Positions 1,457 through 17,113 of a stretch of 17,274 nt of DNA are shown here, in pieces (position 1 is the first letter of the stretch; the number at the start of each line of letters is the position of its first letter). Source of the DNA: Chitinophagaceae bacterium (GTDB lineage: Bacteria; Bacteroidota; Bacteroidia; Chitinophagales; Chitinophagaceae). Below the pieces are notes generated by a model. The model saw only the letters and a program-made list of their open reading frames with translations. It did not search any database and was not told where the DNA came from. The stretch lies in the NCBI GenBank assembly GCA_003455235.1, contig DMRT01000276.1:1-17274 (forward strand), given 5' to 3'. Made by a program: the position numbers and the translations under genes.

Positions 1457-1501
1457 TGTTACTTATGTTACCAAATTCCACCAGCCGGTTAGCGAGATTT
1501 G
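1457..1501 (+). promoter_or_regulatory. Class II Crp/Fnr-type promoter 1 (operator plus -7 box)
   Basis: The operator TGTTACTTATGTTACC lies at 1457-1472, an imperfect version of TGTAAC-N4-GTTACA. Exactly 21 bases later is GAGATTTG (1494-1501), a weak match to TAnnTTTG. The start codon of the persulfide dioxygenase gene follows 14 bases after the box. The same operator-to-box distance recurs at 2938-2982 and 3348-3392. The right half-site lies where a -33 box would be, as expected of an activator-dependent promoter. Confidence 0.6.
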
Positions 1502-1515
1502 CCTAAAAAATAATC

Positions 1516-2931
1516 ATGAAAGTAGTACAGATCTACACAGGCTGTATAGCCCATGCTGCGTATTATATTGAAAGCAATGGCGAAGCCGCCATTTTTGACC
1601 CCCTGCGGGAAGTACAGCCATACATTGACCGGGCTGCCAAAGACAATGCAACGATCAAATATGTTTTTGAAACACACTTTCATGCCGACTTTGTAAGCGG
1701 GCACCTCGACCTGGTTAAAAAAGCCGGCGCCCAGGTGGTGTTTGGTCCAACTGCCAAACCCGGCTACCCGGCCATCGTTGCCAAAGACGGAGAACTGTTT
1801 AAAGTGGGCCATGCATCGGTAAAAGTGATCCATACACCTGGTCATACCATGGAAAGCACCACTTACCTGCTCATTGATGAAAACGGGAAAGAACATGGCC
1901 TCATCACCGGCGACACCCTCTTCATTGGAGATGTAGGCCGGCCCGACCTGGCCCAGCATGTGGTGGCGGAACTCACACAGGAAAAGCTGGCGGGACATTT
2001 ATATGAATCGCTCCGCAATAAGATCATGCCGCTGAACGATGACCTCATCGTGTATCCCAACCACGGAGCCGGAAGTGCCTGCGGTAAAATGATGAGCAAA
2101 GAAACCACCGACACGCTGGGTCACCAGAAACAGGTGAACTATGCATTGAATCCTTCCCTTAGCAAAGAAGAATTTATTAAACAGCTGCTCACCGGGCTTA
2201 CCACGCCACCGGTTTATTTTCCGCAGAATGTACTGATGAACATCAAAGGTTATGAAAGCCTGGACACCATTCTGCAGCGGGGCAAAAAACCAATGGCCGT
2301 TCCGGAATTTGAAGCTGTGGCCAATGAAAGCCGTGCCCTGATACTCGATACAAGGAATGCAAGCGATTTTGCAAAAGCATATATTCCCAACAGCATCAAT
2401 ATCGGGATCGACGGAAACTTTGCCCAATGGGTGGGTGAAATGATCCCCGACGTTAAGCAGCAGATTTTGCTGGTTACCGATCCCGGCCGTGAAGAAGAAT
2501 CCATCATCCGGCTGTCGAGGGTTGGATACGATAACACACTGGGTTACCTCGAAGGCGGTTTTGAAAGCTGGAAAAAAGCCGGTATGGAAACAGAATCCAT
2601 TAAACGCATCAGCGCCGGGGAATTTGCCCGGCTATACGAAGAAGAAAAGCCACTGGTGATTGATGTGCGCAAAAAAAGTGAATTCGATTCGGAACACGTG
2701 GTGGATGCCATCAATATCCCCCTGAACCAGATCAACGATCACCTAGCTGAATTTCCAAAAGAAAAACACTTTGTACTGCATTGTGCAGGTGGTTACCGCA
2801 GCATGATTGCCGCATCGATCCTGAAGCAACGGGGCTGGGATAATTTTTCCGATGTGAGCGGCGGATTCAGCGAGATGATTAAAACACCGGTTCCCCGGAC
2901 AGACTATGTTTGTCCGACCAGCATGTTATAA
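1516..2931 (+). CDS. Persulfide dioxygenase-rhodanese fusion (MBL fold plus two rhodanese domains)
   Basis: 471 residues, cytoplasmic, no signal peptide. The N-terminal ETHE1-like metallo-beta-lactamase domain spans about residues 1-245. It carries H54-F-H56-A-D58, H110 in HTPGH, D133 in TGDTLF and H183 in PNHG. By family knowledge, ETHE1-type enzymes bind one iron through two His and one Asp, here H54, H110 and D133, and oxidise glutathione- or other low-molecular-weight persulfide to sulfite. Residue 59 is Phe where a classical HxHxDH motif has His. Rhodanese domain 1 (about 264-358) lacks the catalytic Cys: the loop reads TDPGREEE. Rhodanese domain 2 (about 363-458) keeps it as C423 in CAGGYRS, so it could join sulfite and sulfane sulfur to or from thiosulfate. 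A further Cys, C466, sits near the C terminus. The architecture resembles CstB-type enzymes. The ATG at 1516 is preceded by an A-rich leader, not a Shine-Dalgarno. The gene opens the sulfur block and has its own operator. Confidence 0.88.
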   Translation: MKVVQIYTGCIAHAAYYIESNGEAAIFDPLREVQPYIDRAAKDNATIKYVFETHFHADFVSGHLDLVKKAGAQVVFGPTAKPGYPAIVAKDGELFKVGHASVKVIHTPGHTMESTTYLLIDENGKEHGLITGDTLFIGDVGRPDLAQHVVAELTQEKLAGHLYESLRNKIMPLNDDLIVYPNHGAGSACGKMMSKETTDTLGHQKQVNYALNPSLSKEEFIKQLLTGLTTPPVYFPQNVLMNIKGYESLDTILQRGKKPMAVPEFEAVANESRALILDTRNASDFAKAYIPNSINIGIDGNFAQWVGEMIPDVKQQILLVTDPGREEESIIRLSRVGYDNTLGYLEGGFESWKKAGMETESIKRISAGEFARLYEEEKPLVIDVRKKSEFDSEHVVDAINIPLNQINDHLAEFPKEKHFVLHCAGGYRSMIAASILKQRGWDNFSDVSGGFSEMIKTPVPRTDYVCPTSML

Positions 2932-2937
2932 CGGATA

Positions 2938-2982
2938 TGTAACATTTGTTACCGCAGGCATGCTCTGCCTGCTCTACCTTTC
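2938..2982 (+). promoter_or_regulatory. Class II Crp/Fnr-type promoter 2 (operator plus -7 box)
   Basis: The operator TGTAACATTTGTTACC at 2938-2953 has perfect GTAAC/GTTAC half-sites around a 4-base spacer. It begins 6 bases past the stop of the preceding gene. After exactly 21 bases comes TACCTTTC (2975-2982), one mismatch from TAnnTTTG. The DUF2892 gene starts 15 bases after the box. The 21-base spacer is itself a hairpin, GCAGGCA (2954-2960) with TGCCTGC (2966-2972), which might also end the upstream transcript although no U tract follows. Confidence 0.7.
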
Positions 2983-2997
2983 GTAAAATTTATCTAT

Positions 2998-3204
2998 ATG
3001 AAAAAGAATATGGGAAATGCCGACAGAATCATCCGCATACTGGTGGCTGCTGCCGTAGCAATCTTGTACTTCACCAACATCATTACCGGTACGCTGGGTA
3101 TTGTGTTGCTGGCCATTGCCGCTGTATTTATTCTTACCAGCCTGGTTGGTTTTTGCCCGCTGTATAAACTGGTTGGACTGAACACCTGCCCGGCAAAGAA
3201 ATAA
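2998..3204 (+). CDS. DUF2892 (YgaP-type transmembrane domain) protein
   Basis: 68 residues. The opening NADRIIRI and the closing GFCPLYKLVGLNTCP match the DUF2892 family closely. The same domain forms the membrane part of the E. coli rhodanese YgaP. Two hydrophobic segments, about residues 11-27 and 31-50, make a membrane hairpin, followed by C53 and C64. Members often sit beside rhodanese or persulfide genes, and a role in sulfur handling at the membrane is likely but unproven. Here it is a stand-alone single-domain protein with its own operator upstream and an intrinsic terminator downstream, so it is probably transcribed alone. Confidence 0.85.
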   Translation: MKKNMGNADRIIRILVAAAVAILYFTNIITGTLGIVLLAIAAVFILTSLVGFCPLYKLVGLNTCPAKK

Positions 3205-3325
3205 AGCAGTGGTTGTTTGGAAAACCAGCCCGCTTTGGCCGGCCGGCAAATGAACTGTTTGTTGCAGGAATGGATGTATTCAGCATTTTTAAAGAAATAA
3301 TTCCCGGAAAACCTATACTATGCAG

Positions 3326-3346
3326 GCAGCCATTGGCTGCTTTTTT
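3326..3346 (+). terminator. Rho-independent terminator after the DUF2892 gene
   Basis: GCAGCC (3326-3331) pairs with GGCTGC (3335-3340) around the loop ATT, followed by six T residues (3341-3346). The next operator begins two bases later, so the terminator separates the DUF2892 transcript from the following operon. The 120 bases between the DUF2892 stop and this hairpin hold no gene I can support. Confidence 0.75.
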
Positions 3347-3347
3347 G

Positions 3348-3392
3348 TGTAACCTTTGTTACGGAGTGCCGGTACAGCGCACGTTATCTTTG
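3348..3392 (+). promoter_or_regulatory. Class II Crp/Fnr-type promoter 3 (operator plus -7 box)
   Basis: The operator TGTAACCTTTGTTACG at 3348-3363 has perfect GTAAC/GTTAC half-sites. After 21 bases comes TATCTTTG (3385-3392), an exact TAnnTTTG -7 box, and the ATG at 3409 follows 16 bases later. The predicted leader is about 10 bases. The operator centre would lie about 42 bases upstream of the transcription start, the class II activator position. This promoter should drive the four-gene operon 3409-4462. Confidence 0.72.
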
Positions 3393-3408: not shown

Positions 3409-3642
3409 ATGAAACAGGCGATCTTCCGCAACTGGAACCTGGTAAGACTATTGAGACTGATCATGGGTATTGCCATTACGGTGCAGGCGGTGATGATGAA
3501 GGATGTGTTGTTCGGGATTGCCGGCATTTTATTTACCATCATGCCCCTGTTCAATATAGGATGTGCAGCCGGTAACTGTGCAGTACCTCCTGTAAAAGAA
3601 AAATCGTTCACCAAAGAAACCGTGTATGAAGAAGTGGTTTAA
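3409..3642 (+). CDS. Small membrane protein with GCxxGxC motif (DUF2892-like)
   Basis: 77 residues. The opening RNWNLVRLLRLIMGIAI resembles the start of DUF2892 proteins. Two hydrophobic stretches (about 12-29 and 33-50) are followed by G51-C52-A-A-G-N-C57 and a charged tail. I do not recognise a characterised family beyond this likeness. The Cys pair at a membrane edge recurs in both neighbouring small membrane proteins, suggesting a shared sulfane-sulfur or redox role (inference). It is the first gene of the operon; the next ORF starts inside it with a 17-base overlap, implying translational coupling. Confidence 0.75.
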   Translation: MKQAIFRNWNLVRLLRLIMGIAITVQAVMMKDVLFGIAGILFTIMPLFNIGCAAGNCAVPPVKEKSFTKETVYEEVV

Positions 3643-3847
3643 AAGCAACCTGCTTTATTTTATTGGTGCAATCGTGGGCGCCCTTGCCGGTTTCATCTAC
3701 TGGCAACAAGTGGGCTGCGCCTCGGGCACCTGTGCCATTACTTCAAAGCCGCTGAACAGTACCTTGTACGGGGCGCTGATGGGGGCACTGCTGTTTGGCC
3801 TGTTCCGGAAAGAAAAACCAGCCACGGATAAAAAAATACAGGAATGA
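3626..3847 (+). CDS. Small membrane protein with GCASGTC motif (DUF6132-like)
   Basis: 73 residues with two membrane segments, about 9-26 and 44-60. The conserved G30-C31-A-S-G-T-C36-A-I-T-S lies between them, followed by PLNSTLYGALMGALL. I recall this pattern as the DUF6132 family of Bacteroidota, but cannot check that here. The function is unknown. The Cys-x4-Cys loop would sit at the membrane surface between the two helices. It overlaps the gene before it by 17 bases, and the next by the ATGA junction at 3844-3847, so it is a tightly coupled operon member between a Cys-pair membrane protein and thioredoxin. Confidence 0.75.
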   Translation: MKKWFKSNLLYFIGAIVGALAGFIYWQQVGCASGTCAITSKPLNSTLYGALMGALLFGLFRKEKPATDKKIQE

Positions 3848-4140
3848 CGTTTAACGAGATAATCGATTCTGAACAACCGGTGCTGGTTGATTTCTTTGCT
3901 GAATGGTGCGGCCCCTGTAAAATGATGTCACCCATTCTTAAAGAAGTAAAAGCAGCAATGGGCAATGCCGTTACCATCATCAAGGTAGATGTGGACAAAA
4001 GCCCGCAGGCTGCCCACCACTACCAGGTGCAGGGTGTGCCCACCCTCATTCTGTTTAAGAAAGGCAAACCAGTATGGCGGCAAAGCGGGGTGGTGCCTAA
4101 GAACGGGCTGATAAGCGTACTGAAGAATTTTACTACATAA
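3844..4140 (+). CDS. Thioredoxin
   Basis: 98 residues, a compact cytoplasmic thioredoxin without a signal peptide. The active site W21-C22-G-P-C25-K is preceded by VLVDFFAEW, and the cis-proline loop is GVP66T. Both are canonical. It would reduce disulfides or persulfides, for example on rhodanese cysteines or the small Cys-pair membrane proteins encoded beside it. Translation probably couples to the gene before through the ATGA overlap. The next gene, a rhodanese, starts 10 bases after the stop. It is shorter than E. coli TrxA (109) because it lacks the N-terminal strand-helix extension. Being in a sulfur operon suggests a dedicated rather than housekeeping role (inference). Confidence 0.9.
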   Translation: MTFNEIIDSEQPVLVDFFAEWCGPCKMMSPILKEVKAAMGNAVTIIKVDVDKSPQAAHHYQVQGVPTLILFKKGKPVWRQSGVVPKNGLISVLKNFTT

Positions 4141-4150
4141 AACAATCATC

Positions 4151-4462
4151 ATGGGTTTATTTCAAATGTTGTTTGGCGGCAAACCATCCGCTGAGCTGAA
4201 AGAAGTGATCGGCAAAAATGCTTTCCTCGTAGACGTGCGCACACCGGGCGAATTTGCCGGTGGCAGCGTGCCAGGTGCGGTGAACATTCCGCTCGACAGG
4301 GTGCCGTCGCAATTGGCAAAATTCAAAGGAAAAGAAAACATCGTCGTGTTTTGCCGCAGTGGCATGAGGAGTGGGCAGGCCAAAGCCATCCTGGAGCAGA
4401 ACGGGTTTAAGAACGTAATCAACGGCGGTACCTGGGAAACCGTGAACCAGCTGGTGAAATAA
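4151..4462 (+). CDS. Single-domain rhodanese
   Basis: 103 residues. FLVDVRTPGEFAGG and GAVNIPLDRV are the standard CH2A-like rhodanese elements, and the active loop C68-R-S-G-M-R-S carries the persulfide-forming cysteine. The short hydrophobic N terminus MGLFQMLFGG is not a convincing signal peptide, so a cytoplasmic location is likely. It is the last gene of the operon led from 3409, after thioredoxin. The likely job is to carry or transfer sulfane sulfur between thiosulfate, persulfides and sulfite. A weak 5-bp hairpin (AAGCC 4464-4468 with GGCTT 4479-4483) follows but lacks a good U tract. Confidence 0.9.
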   Translation: MGLFQMLFGGKPSAELKEVIGKNAFLVDVRTPGEFAGGSVPGAVNIPLDRVPSQLAKFKGKENIVVFCRSGMRSGQAKAILEQNGFKNVINGGTWETVNQLVK

Positions 4463-4498
4463 TAAGCCGTTTCGCTATGGCTTCTTAATCCGGTCCAG

Positions 4499-4506
4499 TA
4501 TATTTG
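4499..4506 (+). promoter_or_regulatory. Candidate -7 box (TATATTTG) for the TsdA-like gene
   Basis: TATATTTG matches TAnnTTTG exactly and begins 52 bases before the ATG at 4551. Unlike the three sulfur promoters upstream, there is no GTAAC-N4-GTTAC dyad 37 bases before it. The leader holds a perfect 10-base palindrome CCGGATCCGG (4530-4539) of unknown meaning. Confidence 0.45.
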
Positions 4507-4550
4507 TTTGGCACGCTGGTAGGCTCTGCCCGGATCCGGCGGTCATTAAT

Positions 4551-5630
4551 ATGCCAAACACCGAACAGGATAAACTGGTACGAAGTCTTCTGAACATCAT
4601 CAATATTTTGCTGCTTGTCGTTGGTGTGCTGGTGGCTACCATCATTATTCTTCCCTTTCTTCTTCCTACCGGTCAAAACCAGTCAAACGGGAAACAACCC
4701 ACGGTTGATTCTGCCGCAGGCATTGACCATACGGTTTACTGGACTCCCCCGGATATCGGCAGCATTGCGGATCCCAAACAAAAGCAACTGGTGGAGTACG
4801 GCAAGGAACTGGTAACGCATACGTCGGTATACCTGGGTCCACATGGTTCGGTATTGAAAATAAGCAATGGCATGAACTGCCAGAACTGTCACCTGCAGGC
4901 GGGCACCGTGGTATTCGGTAATAACTATGGCTCGGTGGCGTCGCTCTATCCCAAATTCAGACCCAGAAGCGGCACCGTGGAAACCATTTTCAAACGCATC
5001 AATGATTGCTTTGAACGAAGCCTGAATGGGAAAGCACCCGACAGCACCGGAAAAGAAATGCAGGCCATCAGGGCCTATATTGAGTTTATCGGAAGCAATG
5101 TGCTTAAGGGACAAAAGGCTGCCGGCTCGGGATTTAAAGACCTGGCCTACCTCAACCGGGCCGCCGATTCTGCCAACGGTCAACAGGTGTATATCAGTAA
5201 ATGCCAGAGTTGTCACCAGGCAAATGGAGAGGGAACACTAAGCCAGGATAAAACAGAATTCACATATCCGCCGCTCTGGGGCAACAGCAGTTTCAACGAT
5301 GGAGCCGGTCTATACCGCATCAGCAGTTTTGCAAAATATGTGAAATACAATATGCCGTTCGGCACCCGCTATCAGAATCCGCAGCTCACCGATGAAGAAG
5401 CCTGGGATGTATCAGCATTCATATTATCTCAACCCCGGCCGCACCTGGCCGTACCCCGTGACTGGCCCAACCTCTCATTAAAACCTGTTGACCATCCCTT
5501 TGGTCCCTATATCGATTCATTTTCCGAAAAGCAGCACAAGTACGGGCCTTTTCCGCCGGTGCTGGCAGTACAGAAAAAGCAGGAAGCTGGCGGTAAAAAA
5601 GCCTCTTCCAAAGCAGGCAATGGCGGTTGA
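4551..5630 (+). CDS. tsdA: TsdA-like dihaem c-type cytochrome (thiosulfate dehydrogenase / tetrathionate reductase)
   Basis: 359 residues. An N-terminal membrane anchor (about 13-38) is followed by a periplasmic part. Haem site 1 is C110-Q-N-C113-H114 in NGMNCQNCHLQAGT; haem site 2 is C218-Q-S-C221-H222. Between them RINDC153FERSLNG matches the TsdA-family GCFxxSxNG segment, whose Cys is the unusual distal haem ligand in characterised TsdA enzymes. M268 in YNMPFG is a candidate distal ligand of haem 2. TsdA couples two thiosulfates into tetrathionate, or runs in reverse. The direction here cannot be told from sequence. The membrane anchor and a Lys/Ala/Gly-rich tail after about residue 340 are additions to the core. 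Thiosulfate made by the persulfide dioxygenase/rhodanese system would be a natural substrate. The family call rests on motifs read by eye. Confidence 0.8.
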   Translation: MPNTEQDKLVRSLLNIINILLLVVGVLVATIIILPFLLPTGQNQSNGKQPTVDSAAGIDHTVYWTPPDIGSIADPKQKQLVEYGKELVTHTSVYLGPHGSVLKISNGMNCQNCHLQAGTVVFGNNYGSVASLYPKFRPRSGTVETIFKRINDCFERSLNGKAPDSTGKEMQAIRAYIEFIGSNVLKGQKAAGSGFKDLAYLNRAADSANGQQVYISKCQSCHQANGEGTLSQDKTEFTYPPLWGNSSFNDGAGLYRISSFAKYVKYNMPFGTRYQNPQLTDEEAWDVSAFILSQPRPHLAVPRDWPNLSLKPVDHPFGPYIDSFSEKQHKYGPFPPVLAVQKKQEAGGKKASSKAGNGG

Positions 5631-5674: not shown

Positions 5675-6307
5675 ATGCAGCAAGAACCTGTATTTACTAA
5701 CCTGTTTGAACCGGAACTGGTAAAGGAAATTTACCGCTACGGTGAAATAAAGCAATTCAAGGAAGGCGACATCATCATCGATTATGGAAAATACATCCGC
5801 ATGATGCCCATTGTGCTGAAAGGAACCATCAAAGTGTTCCGCATGGATGAAACCGGGAACGAAATATTGCTCTACTACCTGTCGAGCAGCGAAAGCTGTT
5901 CCATGGCATACAGCTGCTGCATGGAGGCCAAGAAGAGCGAGGTGAAGGCCATTGCCGAAGACGAGGTGGAACTGATTGCCATCCCGTATGAAAAGCTGGA
6001 GGAATGGCTTTGCCGCTATACCAGCTGGAAGAATTACATCATGCGCAGTTTCAATGAACGCTTCCTGGAACTGCTCCGCTCCATCGAAAGCATCGCTTTT
6101 CATAAGCTGGATGAACGCCTCATTGCTTACCTGAAAGAAAAGCAACGGCTTTCGGGCTCCAGCGTGGTAAAAGCATCACATTACCAGGTGGCCGATGACC
6201 TGGCCACATCGAGAGTGGTGATCTCCCGCCTGCTGAAACAGCTGGAAAACGAAAAGAAGATCATTCTTTACCGCAACGAAATAAAACTGCTTCCCGCACT
6301 GGCATAA
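5675..6307 (+). CDS. Crp/Fnr-family transcriptional regulator with C-x5-CC sensory cysteines
   Basis: 210 residues from the ATG at 5675. A TTG at 5627 would add 16 residues, but it lies upstream of the likely -7 box and is less probable. The N-terminal cyclic-nucleotide-binding-type beta barrel (about 20-110) carries no obvious cAMP-pocket RE motif. It has C75-S-M-A-Y-S-C81-C82, plus C113. A long dimerisation helix (about 112-140) leads to a winged HTH (about 140-205) with recognition helix T178-S-R180-V-V-I-S-R185-L-L. Relative to E. coli Crp, R180 and R185 match but E181 is Val. The spacing of cysteines is unlike the FNR [4Fe-4S] set, so thiol or persulfide chemistry is a more likely signal (inference). 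It follows the TsdA-like gene by 44 bases and is the only regulator in the sulfur block, so it is the prime candidate to bind the three dyads upstream. Confidence 0.85.
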   Translation: MQQEPVFTNLFEPELVKEIYRYGEIKQFKEGDIIIDYGKYIRMMPIVLKGTIKVFRMDETGNEILLYYLSSSESCSMAYSCCMEAKKSEVKAIAEDEVELIAIPYEKLEEWLCRYTSWKNYIMRSFNERFLELLRSIESIAFHKLDERLIAYLKEKQRLSGSSVVKASHYQVADDLATSRVVISRLLKQLENEKKIILYRNEIKLLPALA

Positions 6308-6351: not shown

Positions 6352-7770
6352 TTACTGTTTTATGATCAGTTTCTGCAAACTGATGCTATTGCTCTTCATC
6401 TCCAGCACATACGACCCCGCAGACATAGACGGTGGCAGACTGATGGAATGAACACCGGGCTGACCGATGTTAAGTGTCCCTGTCTGTATAACCTGTCCGT
6501 TGGTGGCGGTAATGCGGTACATGTACGTGCCCGTTGCAGAAGTGCCTGCATACAGGTCAATACGATCACTTACCGGGTTCCTCACTATGTACAGTTCTTT
6601 TGAATGATCGGCCACCGAAACAATGGCGGAGTAAGTTACCCGGTTGCTCAGCTCGGTCATTTTTAAACGGTAGTAAGCAGTGCCCCGTAAGGCGCTGTTG
6701 TCGGTATAACTGTAAAACTCGGTGTTGTTCCGGTTGTTGGCATTTTGTGTGTGGATGGTGCGGAAGCTGATGCCGTCATCGCTTTTTTCCAGTTCATACC
6801 GGTCAACATTCAGCTCGTTGCCGATGCTGTAATTGACCCGGGTGGCTCCGTTGCTGCGGTCTGCGGTAAATGTTATGATCTTTGCCTGCAGTACAAATGA
6901 TACGCTGGCAATTACAAAATTGGTGTTGAAAATATTGGTGCTGCCGGAAGTAACGGAACCTGATGTTGCCACCACACCGGTAGCGGAACCGCCGATGTTT
7001 GTCCATAAACTTCCGTTATAGTACGAAGCCCGTATGCCGCTCAGCATTACATTGGGAAAGGGAACCTTGGCCTGGTCCCAGTTCATCGTAACCTGGGCGC
7101 TGCCGCCGCTGATTCGGTTGATGGTCCAGTATTCAAAGGTATCCACCAGTACCAGCGGGGTGTTCAGGTTGGTACGGTTGGGTGTGGGATTTACATTGTA
7201 CCGTACATTGTATTCGCCGGAAGCGCTCAATGATGATAAGGTTACAGGCCGTTCGTAGGTGTCATTGCCCACCGGGAAGATGAAGTTGCTGTTCCCGAAT
7301 TTTTTTACCCATCCATTCACGTGGCGGGCATCGCTGCTTCCCGAATAGGAAGAGCCCGCTTCGTAGATCATATAATTGGGTGTTGCCGATGTGGTGATTA
7401 AACCAGCAGTATAGGTATGCACCCCGCTTACACTCAGGTTATTGTTTACCAGGAAACCGGCAACATTATCCGTAACCAGGTCGTAGGTTTTAAATGGTTG
7501 TGAACCGGTGATGGTCTGAAGCCCGGTTCCGTTCAGGTACAAACGGCCGGTGCCTGCTGCCATGGCCGACTGGCTGTTGCTGAGGTCCTGGCTTACGTAC
7601 AGCATTCCGTTATTGGTGAATGCAGCACCCGAAGCATTGGTGAAGCCACCGTTTATATAGATGGTATCTGCGGTGTTGCTTACATACAGGGTACCATTGT
7701 TACGCACAGATACCTGTGCCATGGATACAGCCGGCAGGGCAAACAACAGTATGAGGATGATTCTTGTCAT
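6352..7770 (-). CDS. Secreted protein with T9SS type A (Por) sorting domain
   Basis: 472 residues. A Sec signal peptide spans residues 1-18 (hydrophobic IILILLFAL, cleavage near SMA-Q). The mature part is rich in Asn, Ser, Thr and Gly with short beta repeats, such as NGTLYVSNTADTIYINGGF and NNGMLYVSQDL, suggesting a beta-helix or adhesin-like fold. A region around FIFPVGNDTYERPVTLS resembles segments in other Bacteroidota surface proteins. The last 80 or so residues (about 390-472), from LYIVRNPVSDRIDLYAG through GSYVLEM to QKLIIKQ, match the Por C-terminal sorting domain. The protein should cross the outer membrane by the type IX system and be released or anchored at the surface. Its specific function is unknown. 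It ends at the shared terminator and lies downstream of another secreted repeat protein on the same strand. Confidence 0.85.
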   Translation of the reverse strand: MTRIILILLFALPAVSMAQVSVRNNGTLYVSNTADTIYINGGFTNASGAAFTNNGMLYVSQDLSNSQSAMAAGTGRLYLNGTGLQTITGSQPFKTYDLVTDNVAGFLVNNNLSVSGVHTYTAGLITTSATPNYMIYEAGSSYSGSSDARHVNGWVKKFGNSNFIFPVGNDTYERPVTLSSLSASGEYNVRYNVNPTPNRTNLNTPLVLVDTFEYWTINRISGGSAQVTMNWDQAKVPFPNVMLSGIRASYYNGSLWTNIGGSATGVVATSGSVTSGSTNIFNTNFVIASVSFVLQAKIITFTADRSNGATRVNYSIGNELNVDRYELEKSDDGISFRTIHTQNANNRNNTEFYSYTDNSALRGTAYYRLKMTELSNRVTYSAIVSVADHSKELYIVRNPVSDRIDLYAGTSATGTYMYRITATNGQVIQTGTLNIGQPGVHSISLPPSMSAGSYVLEMKSNSISLQKLIIKQ

Positions 7771-11401: not shown

Positions 11402-14400
11402 ATGTCAGCTAAACAGTCATCCCGCAAACCATTTGCAAAAAAACAGGCAACTCCTGCCGGTAGCCCGTTTAATCTGCTGAACAAACCGGCCGTACTGGGG
11501 CTTCTTTCCTTCATAATTCTGGCTCTTTTATTATCCGTGCTTATCTACCAGCGTTATCTTATTTTAAAGGAGTCGCAGAAAAAAGATGTATATGATGTGG
11601 CCAATGCAGCTACTGATAAACTGCAGCAGTCGCTCGCTTATAGCCTCTCGGCCACGAAAATACTTTCCTTCTTTGTTGACAACAACGGGCAGGTGAACAA
11701 CTTCGATTCGGTAGCCAGCCAGATCCTGGTATCCGGAAACGAAGTGGATGCCCTGCAGCTGGTTCCGGGCGGTGTAATCAGGTATGTATACCCACTCCAG
11801 GGAAATGAAGCAGTGCTCGGCTATGACATCTTAAAAGACCCTAGCCGGAACAAAGAAGCTTATAAAGCCATTGAGAAAAAGGAACTCTACTTTGCCGGCC
11901 CTTTCAACCTGCGCCAGGGAGGTATCGGCGTGGTGGGCCGGTTGCCCCTGTTCCGAAATGGAAAATTCTGGGGATTTTCTGCCGTGGTAATTAAAATGCC
12001 CACCCTGCTGAAAGCGGCGGGCATCGATACCACCGGAACAGGCGGATATTATTTCCAGCTTTCCAAAATCAACCCGGATACACAGGAGGAAGAATTCTTT
12101 ATCCGCCATAATAAAGACATAGCCGTGGGTCAATCTGTGTCGGTGAATGTACCCAACGGGGAATGGAAATTATCGGTGGCCAAAGAAACATCGCTGAATG
12201 ACCTGGCCGATATCCTGTTGTTCATTTTTTTCGGATTGCTGTTTTCCCTCCTGGGCGCCCTGTTCATTTACCATGTTGCCCGGCGTCCCCGAAAACTGGA
12301 TGAACTGGTACGGTTGCGTACCCGCCAGCTGAAACAAAGCGAAGAAAAATTTTCCAAAGCCTTTCATTCAAACCTGCTTGGCCTGGCTATATACGATACC
12401 GCCTGGCGCATTGTGGATGTAAATGAAACATATGCTTCCCTGCTTGAAGCACCGCGGGAGCAATTACTGGGAAAGCCATCGGAAGAAGCAGGCCTGCTCA
12501 GTAAAACAGACAGTGAAAAAAGAGAGCTCATCAGCACCGAACTGGATCAGCTGCTGGTTGTGGATGGCTACGTAGCCAATTATGAGGCCCATATTAAAAC
12601 CCGGGACGGGGAGCAACACAGCATCCTGCTCTCGATTGAAGAACTGGAATTCGGCAATGAACAATACTGGCTCACTTCGGCCATCGACATTACCGGCAAT
12701 AAAAAAGCCGAACTGCTGATGCAGGAAAGCGAAGAGAAATACCGTACCCTGGTGGAGCAGGCCAGCGACGGCATTGTGATCACCGACCTGGATGGATATA
12801 TTATTGAAGTAAACAAAAGCATTTGCCTGCTGAGCGGCTACCCGGAGAATGAAATGCTGGGACAGCACCTTTATAAATTTGTACCCGCCGATGACGTGGA
12901 TACCAACCCGCTGCGTATTAATGAACTGATGCAGGGCAAAGCACTGCTGTATGAGCGACGGCTGTTACGCAAAGACGGCAGCACCCTGGATATTGAAGTG
13001 AACTCCAAGATGGCCAGCTCGCATACACTGATCGGTTTTATACGGGATATTACGGAACGGAAAAAAAATGAACGGGAATCGCAGTACCAGGCACGCCTGC
13101 TGGAGAGTGTATCGGATGCCATCACATCGCTCGACATGAACCGCTGCATCGTAAGCTGGAACAAAGCCTGCGAAGACCTGTACGGACTTACTTCCGGAGA
13201 AGTGATCGGCAAACGCATTCCCGAACTGGTTACATTCGATTTTCCCGGCACCAGCACCGAAGAGGTATTTAAAAAAGTATACAGTGAAGGGCACTGGCGT
13301 GGCGAATTCAATTTCATACACCCCCATACACAGGTAAAAACCTATTTACATAGCGGCCTCAGCCTGCTGAAAACAAAAGAAGGTGATCCCAGTGGATTTA
13401 TCATCACCAGCCGCGACATCACCGAGCAGAAAAAAGCACAGCTGCTCATTGAGGAAAGCGAAGAAAAATACCGCACCCTGGTAGAGCAGGCAAACGACGG
13501 GATTTTTATTGCTGACAAGCAAGGGCGATTCCTGGTCGTAAACTCAAGTGGCTATAAAATGTCACAGTATTCCCCGGAAGAAATGAGTGCATTAAATATA
13601 TACGACCTGGTGGTGCCCGAAGACCTGGCAGCAAACCCGTTCCAGTTTTCCGAAATGATGAATGCCGGCGGTGCCCGTGCCGAGCGACGCATGAAACGGA
13701 AAGACGGTACACTGCTGGATGTGGAGGTAAGCGCCAAATTCATTTCGGGCGAGCGATTCCTGGCTTTTGTACGGGATATATCCGAACGGAAAAAAGCCGA
13801 AGAAAAAGTGCGGATATCCAACGAGCGTTTTGCCATCATTGCACAGGCCACCAACGATGCCGTGTGGGATCATGATTTCCGTAACAACGAAACCTGGGGA
13901 AACAAAAAACTGTACAGCCTGTATGGTTTTGATTCATTAGATGAAAAGATCGACTTTGAAATGTTCCTCGACCGGATCCATCCCGACGAACAGCAGGGCA
14001 TTGTGGAGCGGCTGAACCAGGCCATTGAACGATCGGAGAATTCCATTGCCGAAGAATTCCATTTTAAAACAGCCGGTGGAGAATACCGCACTTTTTACGA
14101 CCGGGCCTACATTAAATACGATGAACAGGGTAAACCCCAGCGCATACTGGGCGCCATGCAGGATGTTACCGACCGGGAAAAAACAGAGAAGCAGATCCTG
14201 AAAGAAAAAGAATTGTCTGATTCAATCATCAACAGCCTGCCCGGCGTTTTCTACCTGTATACCCGGGAAGGAAAATTCCTTCGCTGGAATAAAAACTTCG
14301 AAACCATAACCGGCTATACCGGGGAAGAAATAAGTGGTATGCACCCGCTGGATTTTTTTGATGAGCCTGAAAAACAGTTGCTGCAGGAAAAGATCGCCAA

Positions 14401-17113
14401 TGTTTTTGTGACCGGCCAAGACCAGGTGGAAGCGGGGTTCCTGACTAAGAAGGGGGAAAAGATCATGCATTATTTCACCGGACAGGCCATTCAATACGAA
14501 GGCCAGGGCTGCCTGATGGGTGTGGGGTTTGATATTTCAGAAAAGGAAAAAGCAGCAAAAAAAATACAGGAAAGCGAAGAGAAATTCCGCACCATCATTG
14601 AACAGGCCTCAGATGGAATATTCATTGCCGGGGAAGATACCGTCTTTCTGGATGTAAATGGAGCCGGTTGCCGGATGTTGGGTTATACCCGGGAAGAGCT
14701 CACGAAAATGAGATTTATGTCCCTGGTGCCGCCGGAGGATCTTGCTAATAACCCGGTTAAAGTTTCGCAACTGGAGTCAGGAAATACGGTGATCAATGAA
14801 CACCGGCTGATGCGCAAAGATGGTTCCATTATTGACGTGGAAATAAGTGCCAAAAAACTTCAGGATGGCCGCTATCAATCCTTTGTGCGTGACATCACCG
14901 AGCGCAAGCAGGCTGAAAAAGCCTTACTGGAAAGCCAGGGAAATTACAAGGCCCTGGTGGAGCATGCACCCGAAGCGTTGGTGGTTTTTGATGTAGACCA
15001 GCAGAAATTTGTAAGTGTAAGTACCAGCGCCAGCCGTCTGTTTAAAATGACAGAAGAAGAATTATTAAAGACCGGCCCGGTGTCGGTAAGTCCCCCATAC
15101 CAGGCAGACGGCCGCTCATCGCAGGAAGCAGCAGCTGAATATATCCGCCAGGCATTGGAAGGTGATAAACCCGTCTTTGAATGGACTCACTGTGATAAGG
15201 AAGGCAATACCATTCCCTGCGAAGTATGGCTGGTGCGGTTGCCTGCCGAAAACAAGATGCTGATACGCGGAAGCATCATCGACATTACCGAACGGAAGAA
15301 AGCCGACAATAAATTCAGAACCCTGCTTGAATCAGCAGCTGATGCCATGGTGATTGTAAATGAAGACGGACAGGTTCAGCTCAGCAATACACAAACCGAA
15401 AAAGTGTTTGGGTATACCAAACAGGAGCTGATTGGTCAGCATGTGTCCATCCTGATGCCCGCCCGTTATAAAGACATTCATACCGGGCACCACCTGAAGG
15501 AATTTTTCAAAAATCCCAAAACAAGACCGATGGGCGAAGGACTGGTACTGTACGGCATGCGCAAGAACGGCGAAGAGTTTCCCATCGAGATCAGCCTGAG
15601 TCCGCTGGAAGCAACAGAGGGGTTGCTGGTATCAGCCAGTATCCGCGACATCACCGAACGCAAACGGAATGAAGAAGAGATTTTAAAATCGAAGATGCAG
15701 TTCCAAAGCCTGGTGGAAAATATCTCCGGGGTATACTGGGTAAATAATCTCGACAGTTTTGAAACGCTGTACATCAGTCCTTCTTACGAAACCATATGGG
15801 GCCGGAAAGCAGACGAATTGTATAAGAATCCCGCAGGTTTTATCGATGCGGTTCATCCGGATGACAAACAATTACTGGCGGAAGCATTTAAGAACCTCCC
15901 CGTCACCAGGCAGTCGAGTTTATCGTACCGCATCATACGTCCCGATGGCGAAACCAGGTGGATCCATGCCAATACCAATGTGGTAACCGATACAAAGGGA
16001 GCCAACATCGAATATGGATATGCCGAAGACATCACCGACCGGAAGAACTCGGAGGAAAAACTGCAGTTGTCTGAACAGAAATACCGTCTCCTGTTTTATA
16101 ACAACCCGCTGCCCATGTGGATGGTTACCATCCCCGACCTGATGATCATTGATGTAAATGATGCGGCGATTAAACAGTACGGATACAGCCGGGAAGAATT
16201 TTTAAGGCTCAGCACCAGAGACCTGCGTCCGCCGGAAGACATCGATAACTTCCTGAAGGAAGTGGATACCATGAAACCCGGCATCATCAACGTACGTGCC
16301 TGGCGGCATAAAAAGAAAGACGGTACCATCATCCATGTGGAAACCTACAGTCACCAGATCATGTACGAAGGCCGGATGGTATGGCTTGGCCTGTCGCACG
16401 ATGTAACGGAAGAATACAAAGCAAAAGAGCTGTTGCAGAAATCGTACGAAGACATCCGCATGCTGGTGTCGAACCTGCAAAGCATCCGGGAAGATGAGCG
16501 TACCAATATTGCCCGTGAAATACATGATGAACTGGGTCAGCAGCTCACGGGACTTAAAATGGATATGCACTGGCTTTCCAGGAAGATAAGCAGTACGGAT
16601 GAAGAAGTAACCCGTAAAATGAAAGACGGCATTGAGCTGGTGAATTCCACCATTGCCACGGTCCGGAAAATTGCCACAGACCTGCGTCCAAGCATTTTGG
16701 ACGACCTCGGGTTACTGGCGGCGCTGGAATGGCAGAGTGAGGAATTTGAACGACGGTCTGGAACACATGTAGTATTCACCAATAAAGCGGGGGAAATATC
16801 GGTGAAGCCGGCTACGGCCACCGCCTTATTCCGCATTTACCAGGAAGTGCTTACCAATGTGGCCCGTCACGCCAATGCCAGCCAGGTGGAAGCCACGCTT
16901 GACAGCGATGATAAAAGTTTGTACATTAGTATCAAAGACAACGGTGTCGGTTTCGACGTGGATGCCATCAAGGGCAAAAAGACACTGGGCCTCCTTGGTA
17001 TTAAAGAACGCAGCCTGCTTATCGGCGGAACCTATGAAATAAAAAGCAAACCAGGCCATGGGTCGGAGATCCTGATCTCCCTTCCGCTGGAACCGGTAAA
17101 AACCTCTGATTAA
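11402..17113 (+). CDS. Giant CHASE/multi-PAS sensor histidine kinase (NarX/HisKA_3 type)
   Basis: 1903 residues. TM1 (about 30-50) and TM2 (about 268-291) flank an extracytoplasmic CHASE-like domain, recognisable from VLGYDILKDPSRN and YFAGPFNLRQGGIGVVGRLPLF. Then come eleven PAS/PAC units by my count, starting near residues 314, 443, 563, 686, 806, 938, 1059, 1179, 1304, 1432 and 1557. Most close with a D[IV][TS]E/DRK-type PAC ending. The kinase core is HisKA_3 with phospho-acceptor H1708 in IAREIHDELGQQL, and a HATPase with N1819 (NVARHA) and DNGVGFD (1846-1852). There is no receiver domain. The partner is the NarL-type regulator starting 9 bases after the stop. The ligand of the CHASE domain and any PAS cofactors are unknown. 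PAS units 2, 4 and 7 are close copies of each other. Confidence 0.9.
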   Translation: MSAKQSSRKPFAKKQATPAGSPFNLLNKPAVLGLLSFIILALLLSVLIYQRYLILKESQKKDVYDVANAATDKLQQSLAYSLSATKILSFFVDNNGQVNNFDSVASQILVSGNEVDALQLVPGGVIRYVYPLQGNEAVLGYDILKDPSRNKEAYKAIEKKELYFAGPFNLRQGGIGVVGRLPLFRNGKFWGFSAVVIKMPTLLKAAGIDTTGTGGYYFQLSKINPDTQEEEFFIRHNKDIAVGQSVSVNVPNGEWKLSVAKETSLNDLADILLFIFFGLLFSLLGALFIYHVARRPRKLDELVRLRTRQLKQSEEKFSKAFHSNLLGLAIYDTAWRIVDVNETYASLLEAPREQLLGKPSEEAGLLSKTDSEKRELISTELDQLLVVDGYVANYEAHIKTRDGEQHSILLSIEELEFGNEQYWLTSAIDITGNKKAELLMQESEEKYRTLVEQASDGIVITDLDGYIIEVNKSICLLSGYPENEMLGQHLYKFVPADDVDTNPLRINELMQGKALLYERRLLRKDGSTLDIEVNSKMASSHTLIGFIRDITERKKNERESQYQARLLESVSDAITSLDMNRCIVSWNKACEDLYGLTSGEVIGKRIPELVTFDFPGTSTEEVFKKVYSEGHWRGEFNFIHPHTQVKTYLHSGLSLLKTKEGDPSGFIITSRDITEQKKAQLLIEESEEKYRTLVEQANDGIFIADKQGRFLVVNSSGYKMSQYSPEEMSALNIYDLVVPEDLAANPFQFSEMMNAGGARAERRMKRKDGTLLDVEVSAKFISGERFLAFVRDISERKKAEEKVRISNERFAIIAQATNDAVWDHDFRNNETWGNKKLYSLYGFDSLDEKIDFEMFLDRIHPDEQQGIVERLNQAIERSENSIAEEFHFKTAGGEYRTFYDRAYIKYDEQGKPQRILGAMQDVTDREKTEKQILKEKELSDSIINSLPGVFYLYTREGKFLRWNKNFETITGYTGEEISGMHPLDFFDEPEKQLLQEKIANVFVTGQDQVEAGFLTKKGEKIMHYFTGQAIQYEGQGCLMGVGFDISEKEKAAKKIQESEEKFRTIIEQASDGIFIAGEDTVFLDVNGAGCRMLGYTREELTKMRFMSLVPPEDLANNPVKVSQLESGNTVINEHRLMRKDGSIIDVEISAKKLQDGRYQSFVRDITERKQAEKALLESQGNYKALVEHAPEALVVFDVDQQKFVSVSTSASRLFKMTEEELLKTGPVSVSPPYQADGRSSQEAAAEYIRQALEGDKPVFEWTHCDKEGNTIPCEVWLVRLPAENKMLIRGSIIDITERKKADNKFRTLLESAADAMVIVNEDGQVQLSNTQTEKVFGYTKQELIGQHVSILMPARYKDIHTGHHLKEFFKNPKTRPMGEGLVLYGMRKNGEEFPIEISLSPLEATEGLLVSASIRDITERKRNEEEILKSKMQFQSLVENISGVYWVNNLDSFETLYISPSYETIWGRKADELYKNPAGFIDAVHPDDKQLLAEAFKNLPVTRQSSLSYRIIRPDGETRWIHANTNVVTDTKGANIEYGYAEDITDRKNSEEKLQLSEQKYRLLFYNNPLPMWMVTIPDLMIIDVNDAAIKQYGYSREEFLRLSTRDLRPPEDIDNFLKEVDTMKPGIINVRAWRHKKKDGTIIHVETYSHQIMYEGRMVWLGLSHDVTEEYKAKELLQKSYEDIRMLVSNLQSIREDERTNIAREIHDELGQQLTGLKMDMHWLSRKISSTDEEVTRKMKDGIELVNSTIATVRKIATDLRPSILDDLGLLAALEWQSEEFERRSGTHVVFTNKAGEISVKPATATALFRIYQEVLTNVARHANASQVEATLDSDDKSLYISIKDNGVGFDVDAIKGKKTLGLLGIKERSLLIGGTYEIKSKPGHGSEILISLPLEPVKTSD

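Follow-up and report, generated by a model that had tools for sequence, protein, structure and literature searches.

The window, the whole 17,274-nucleotide stretch analysed here, constitutes contig 106 of a draft Chitinophagaceae genome (2.6 Mb in 346 contigs, 68% complete). All genes of the locus lie on its forward strand. The first (1516..2931) combines a metallo-beta-lactamase fold (PF00753) with two rhodanese domains (PF00581 in two stretches), and we take its product to be of the persulfide dioxygenase-rhodanese type. A YgaP-like transmembrane protein follows (2998..3204; PF11127, 6.6e-24), and then a gene run that opens with a small membrane-type protein without a match in a Pfam search (3409..3642) and continues with a DUF6132 protein (3626..3847; PF19628), a thioredoxin (3844..4140; PF00085, with TIGR01068 over its cut-off) and a single-domain rhodanese (4151..4462; PF00581). 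The small protein was considered as a second YgaP-type protein and rejected, as the two share no detectable likeness (E 0.31). Downstream lie a SoxA/TsdA-like c-type cytochrome (4551..5630; PF21342, PF00034), a putative regulon member and candidate thiosulfate dehydrogenase, and a regulator of the Crp/Fnr family (5675..6307), assigned by its domains, by alignment and by a structure model.

Three operator-promoter units on the forward strand precede these genes, and they share one architecture. The operators, TGTTACTTATGTTACC (1457..1472), TGTAACATTTGTTACC (2938..2953) and TGTAACCTTTGTTACG (3348..3363), were found by sequence reading and pattern search and share the dyad TGTwAC-N4-GTTAC. Each is paired with a −7 box: GAGATTTG (1494..1501) and TACCTTTC (2975..2982) each differ from TAnnTTTG at one position, and TATCTTTG (3385..3392) matches it exactly. 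The spacer between GTTAC and box is 22 bases at all three sites, which is the same distance as a 21-base gap counted from the end of the 16-base dyad, and the spacer of box 1 is also that of relatives. The ATGs at 1516, 2998 and 3409 begin 14, 15 and 16 bases past boxes 1, 2 and 3, respectively. The initial annotation had given these dyads, 21-base gaps, boxes and ATG distances, and they hold to the base. It had also seen no copy at the other promoters of the window, in agreement with a pattern search of the whole window in which exact TGTWACNNNNGTTAC matches fall at the three operators only. No dyad lies directly upstream of the regulator gene within the window.

CRP and FNR, when they occupy the class II position, bind operators centred at −41.5. 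The available portion of PMC9723704 assigns the TAnnTTTG box of Flavobacterium psychrophilum to positions −12 to −5. With the box at this position and a spacer of 22, the 14-base dyad extends from −48 to −35, its phase relative to the −7 box is constant, and its centre falls at −41.5, a placement that borrows a box position published for another genus and relates to predicted start sites. This value bears out the earlier estimate of about 42 bases between operator centre and expected start. The companion claim, that the right half-site occupies the −33 position, is only partly right: the half-site spans −39 to −35, abutting the −33 element but not covering it. A matrix of relatives' sites shows the interval between dyad and box to be low in information, which implies that a conserved −33 element is absent. 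This geometry fits activator-dependent promoters and suggests that the regulator activates. The opposite arrangement would have it repress, its operator beside the −7 box blocking polymerase until an inducer releases it, in the manner of ArsR/CsoR-type persulfide sensors. Precedent for this exists in CstR, SqrR and BigR, which are repressors, though FisR is an activator (PMC9774590, in the part available). A fixed-phase centre at −41.5 without a conserved −33 element is nonetheless the geometry of class II activators, and repression appears unlikely.

The dyad taken without its box is not distinctive. Allowing up to two mismatches, the window contains an unremarkable 10 matches (including reverse readings of the three sites) versus 6.2 expected, and 23 of 200 shuffled windows contain at least 10. 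Nor is the exact bare dyad enriched in the window's genome, where it is no commoner than its reversed control (12 versus 16 matches), as would be expected if the three dyads were a coincidence within a short window. The spacing between dyad and box argues otherwise. In 80 named regulator loci (1.09 Mb, gathered through alignment of regulator orthologues and not phylogenetically independent), GTAAC-N4-GTTAC yields 138 both-strand counts, or 69 places, versus 0 to 8 strand counts for each of six permuted control dyads. Exact dyads paired with TAnnTTTG at spacers of 5 to 45 in these loci have a spacer of 22 in 38 of 44 cases. A search of 195 whole genomes that was not regulator-centred and covered spacers of 17 to 24 places 53 of 76 matches at 22, with 9 at 21, 11 at 23 and 3 elsewhere. 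Since the reversed control of the exact phased pattern gives 45 matches in the same genomes, the total excess is modest, and it is the spacing peak that carries the argument. Both spacing counts are free of tie-breaking bias; another count, 67 of 73 at 22, is biased, as ties between spacers were resolved towards 22. When up to two mismatches are tolerated, the phased pattern shows no enrichment in six genomes (65 matches versus 119 for the reversed control), and therefore only matches with at most one mismatch are used.

A 48-column matrix was built from 67 training sites of relatives, which are not phylogenetically independent, with the window excluded. Applied to the window, it ranks operators 3, 2 and 1 first, second and third (30.9, 25.9 and 13.7 bits), the next score being −4.1, and 2 of 200 shuffled windows contain a site that scores at least as high as the weakest operator. 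The initial annotation had named random scatter without promoter phasing as evidence that would tell against its reading. The bare dyad is indeed scattered, but with its −7 box it peaks at a spacing of 22. Given this peak, the held-out matrix and the conservation described below, coincidence has a negligible chance; spacing and conservation already refute it.

Loci were given for 30 of the 76 phased matches. Half of these (15 of 30) lead a homologue of the small 3409..3642 gene, in the window and in 14 further genomes, every one of them from the same genus as the window, and this homologue usually precedes DUF6132, thioredoxin and rhodanese genes. The sites are thus conserved before the same genes in relatives, as the earlier reading demanded, in the case of site 3 and within one genus. 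A wider count of 22 of 30 is partly circular, its reference set having come in part from gene clusters found through the dyad; the count of 15 is not. Elsewhere in the Bacteroidota, similar dyads stand before dioxygenase-rhodanese and YgaP-type genes. The targets there include dioxygenase-rhodanese, TauE/SafE sulfite exporter, Sulf_transp, SulP and oxidoreductase-rhodanese genes, along with OsmC, peroxiredoxin, cytochrome bd and a DUF983 protein. Two more targets in relatives score below the cut-offs of their models: a SorA-like sulfite dehydrogenase reaches 240 bits where the cut-off is 600, and a protein resembling quinone reductase scores 211 bits with the model for type III sulfide:quinone reductase, whose cut-off is 525. 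A clear type III sulfide:quinone reductase (652.7 bits) adjoins the dyad at L182:3512, on the side away from the −7 box.

The window's genome contains eight phased matches at up to two mismatches and four at no more than one, namely the three of the window and a site on contig 157. This fourth site leads genes for an outer-membrane efflux protein (OMF), a membrane-fusion protein (MFP) and an RND pump cut by the contig end. The pump is 56% identical to that of relatives over its first 293 residues and the two shorter genes are 36-44% identical to relatives' efflux genes, values that make the contig-157 genes homologous, orthology not being provable. In four relatives (G126, G045, G028 and G122) the homologous OMF-MFP-RND genes are preceded by a dyad and end beside the regulator gene; a P-II-like gene follows them in all four and a YgaP-like small protein in three, both assignments having been made by Pfam in G126 only. 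Six genomes together contain 19 matches that deviate at one position or none, and 13 of these are no more than 25 kb away from the regulator gene. Regulator loci with no core sulfur gene in the available DNA number 19 of 80, 6 of 30 and 13 of 30 in three locus sets, the two sets of 30 covering about 3.6 kb per locus; the oxidoreductase-rhodanese query, one of the core set, may also pick up oxidoreductases that are unrelated, which makes the sulfur-gene positives upper bounds.

Several observations tie these operators to the regulator at 5675..6307. Its gene adjoins the three-operator locus. The stop codon of the regulator gene shares bases with an exact GTRAC-N4-GTYAC dyad in 27 of 130 distinct loci of the orthologue set, and with a looser dyad in 42 of 130, as in gat-TTG-TAA-C. 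Among the 59 genomes with a close orthologue (E up to 5e-60), 29 contain an exact phased site, compared with 13 of the 69 whose nearest match is a more distant member and 4 of the 67 without a regulator match at 1e-30; the first and last groups differ with a Fisher p of 3e-8, uncorrected for kinship. The cut at 5e-60 was set after the data had been seen, and a strict 1e-60 drops one genome (G292) to give 28 of 58. An exact phased site of the GTAAC type is absent from the remaining 30 of the 59 close-orthologue genomes. The dyads could instead be bound by a different Crp/Fnr protein encoded in the genome: the regulator query returned five first-look candidates there, one above threshold, and distant family members elsewhere also adjoin sulfur genes and similar dyads. 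Because the dyads co-occur with close orthologues and overlap the orthologue's stop codon in relatives, we regard this as very unlikely.

The recognition helix of the regulator reads R180-V181-x3-R185, and residue 181 is V or E across the family. V181 accompanies an A/T-type operator (GTAAC/GTTAC) in 42 of 44 cases, and E181 accompanies at least one G/C-type half-site (GTGAC/GTCAC) in 20 of 23. The exceptions are the E181 proteins L023, L024 and L118, which keep GTAAC sites, and two V181 proteins with a mixed site; the V181 genomes L133, L144 and L152 also contain a phased GTGAC/GTCAC site. From 160 loci, 150 regulators were retained after removal of identical proteins, those containing stops or shorter than 171 residues, and those whose residue 181 is not V, E or A; 81 of these 150 distinct regulators lack a phased site close to the stop codon and, like two A181 rows, are excluded from the two-by-two table. 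On the regulator tree residue 181 changes three times, so the pattern consists of two E/GC groups and one E/AT exception group and not of many independent events. With one to three independent pairs, the independent-pairs test of residue 181 against operator type is not significant, there being too few independent changes. Adjacency, co-occurrence and the agreement between residue 181 and operator together support this regulator as the probable binder of the dyads.

Membership of the regulator in the Crp/Fnr superfamily follows from PF00027 and PF13545, both above cut-off. Its model (mean pLDDT 89.8) shows a beta domain, a long helix at 116-160 and a helix-turn-helix at 169-192, and its fold matches in the PDB are CAP/CRP and NtcA. 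Known members of the superfamily were rejected as equivalents. The cAMP-CRP equivalog gives 43 bits against a cut-off of 266, the cassette reading ESCAMTFTCCM in the family consensus, and the NtcA equivalog gives 47.3 bits against 244.95. FNR senses oxygen through a [4Fe-4S] cluster held by an N-terminal cysteine cluster; its model yields 19 bits against 228, and the window protein has no cysteine before residue 75.

Three cysteines at and beyond that residue are conserved. Cys75, Cys81 and Cys82 are present in 130, 129 and 127 of the 130 members of the orthologue set, and all three together in 127, a degree of sequence conservation in keeping with persulfide-sensing regulators. In the predicted model they lie just before and within a short helix at 76-84. 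The sequence alignment sets them against the CRP-type nucleotide-binding cassette, which is presumably also their place in the fold. Cys75 occurs in all 150 compared sequences. Among 20 distant members it is kept in 20, Cys81 in 14 and Cys82 in none, and Cys75 is therefore the residue to test. The loci of these distant members had been tried as a negative control, which was rejected: 18 of 20 have a core sulfur gene, and they belong to the same wider sulfur family.

Considering the targets, sulfane-sulfur sensing is the most economical reading of these cysteines. A serious possibility is that the same regulator and operators respond to oxygen, redox state, an anion or a small metabolite, the sulfur genes being one output of several. 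The cytochrome bd, peroxiredoxin, RND efflux system and DUF983 protein among relatives' targets would suit such a signal, and the distant members, with Cys82 lost and Cys81 partly so, show that the trio is not needed family-wide. The invariance of Cys75 in every sequence compared and the sulfide-oxidation type genes that adjoin even the distant members speak against it.

Phasing and conservation also support the overall view of the initial annotation, a class II Crp/Fnr-type sulfur regulon. Combining these lines of evidence, we estimate a probability of roughly four in five that the 5675..6307 regulator switches on a sulfide/sulfane-sulfur detoxification regulon through the three operators. 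A Crp/Fnr dimer of this protein would bind TGTAAC-N4-GTTAC centred at −41.5 and would recruit RNA polymerase in class II fashion to promoters that possess a TAnnTTTG −7 box and lack a conserved −33 element, activating rather than repressing them. The regulon would include the dioxygenase-rhodanese, the YgaP-type membrane protein, the thioredoxin and the rhodanese at this locus, plus the efflux operon elsewhere in the genome. Induction may occur when persulfide or polysulfide acts on the conserved cysteines found in place of the nucleotide-binding cassette. The regulator is found widely in Bacteroidota and probably turns on sulfide/sulfane-sulfur detoxification there. A more tentative generalization is that Crp/Fnr activators throughout the phylum sense sulfane sulfur directly, via a Cys-x5-Cys-Cys switch derived from the cyclic-nucleotide cassette, that their operator is often the regulator's own stop codon, and that a V/E exchange at residue 181 re-tuned recognition between TGTAAC and TGTGAC during diversification of the family. 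Were the reading correct, the Bacteroidota, a large phylum with members in gut, soil and sea, would have a sulfide-response regulator of its own with a readable operator (TGTAAC-N4-GTTAC, 22 bases, TAnnTTTG). New candidate sulfide genes would follow from it, among them the small membrane proteins, DUF6132, DUF983 and the RND pump with its P-II-like protein, and the family would let the specificity rule for CRP residue 181 be tested on natural variation.

The CstR, SqrR/BigR and FisR regulons resemble the present one in controlling sulfide/persulfide oxidation genes, whereas their regulators are CsoR, ArsR and Fis-type proteins, with no Crp/Fnr member named in the part of the review available (PMC9774590). 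The reactive-sulfur regulators that it covers there (CstR, SqrR, BigR, PigP and FisR) include none labelled Crp/Fnr, nor does that label appear in titles on OxyR, AdpA, HlyU and YgaV. Among the papers listed by a literature search with few subscription papers, none has a title or abstract opening that points to a Crp/Fnr sulfur regulon or to this operator in Bacteroidota. The CRP/FNR meta-regulon study in PMC8510549 describes MalR-like proteins from Ignavibacteria, Flavobacteriales and Saprospiraceae MAGs that share the superfamily and partly the phylum and are predicted to sense carbon; its main text, as available, has no word starting GTTAC or TGTAAC and no sulfur regulon. The best PDB sequence match, 3dv8 from Eubacterium rectale (profile E 1.3e-27), has cysteines at the Cys75 and Cys81 positions. 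It differs in the absence of Cys82, and its record says only that it is a putative Crp/Fnr regulator.

Cyanobacterial NtcA is both a structural relative and the best-scoring NCBIfam family (47 bits), and it likewise has a V after the helix arginine. The NtcA site is GTA-N8-TAC, a pattern that the operator here shares. The differences are sulfur genes in place of nitrogen genes, the cysteine motif, and a score far below the NtcA cut-off. The accessible text of PMC2633013 contains nothing on CRP residue 181 or on NtcA recognition. E. coli CRP and FNR in their class II mode have the same Crp/Fnr fold and symmetric operator at −41.5. Unlike them, the system here pairs V181 with TGTAAC rather than E181 with TGTGA, uses the Bacteroidota −7 box, and has a cysteine motif in place of the CRP nucleotide cassette. 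Recognition-helix arginines at the R180 and R185 positions are common to both, and Arg185 and Glu181 of E. coli CRP read the G4:C4 pair of TGTGA (PMC11253593, available portion). The G4:C4 pair corresponds exactly to the base that differs between the two operator types, and the residue number 181 coincides with E. coli CRP numbering.

Dyads of the kind seen in the window (TGTwAC-N4-GTTAC there) that are phased with a TAnnTTTG −7 box are most densely packed, among those found in the analysis, around one gene for the Crp/Fnr-family regulator in another genome, where 26 kb (G022:C1:2653669-2679504) hold seven exact dyad and box pairs on six dyads. A different arrangement is seen downstream of the regulator gene at loci L032, L036 and L208 of other genomes, where two dyads are spaced exactly 22 bases apart, as if for tandem binding by two dimers.

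Phased dyads also precede genes for small CxxC proteins in regulator loci L144 (dyad at 7520), L043, L044, L045, L048 and L072, making these proteins a recurrent target. The L144 protein is a DUF983 protein, and the others resemble it by eye.

At L182, the regulator locus of a relative, the score of the protein encoded at 3650-4906 against the selenoprotein-subtype model for type III sulfide:quinone reductase exceeds that model's cut-off, and its open reading frame has no internal stop. An RND efflux operon adjoining the regulator gene of this locus encodes a P-II-like small protein (13746-14051; PF00543, 5e-07). Loci L100 and L134 are titled Bifidobacterium breve and Fibrobacteres; these MAG labels may be wrong, because the regulators encoded there belong to this Bacteroidota family.

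Within the window, operator 1, the dyad at 1457-1472, begins about 50 bases past the end of a tRNA-Arg (ccg) gene (1336-1408). A SoxA/TsdA-type cytochrome c gene (4551-5630) lies between the rhodanese and regulator genes, and the string TATATTTG at 4499-4506, with no dyad beside it, may serve the cytochrome gene as a promoter of its own. The 1903-aa open frame at 11402-17113 looks by eye like a candidate multi-PAS sensor histidine kinase.
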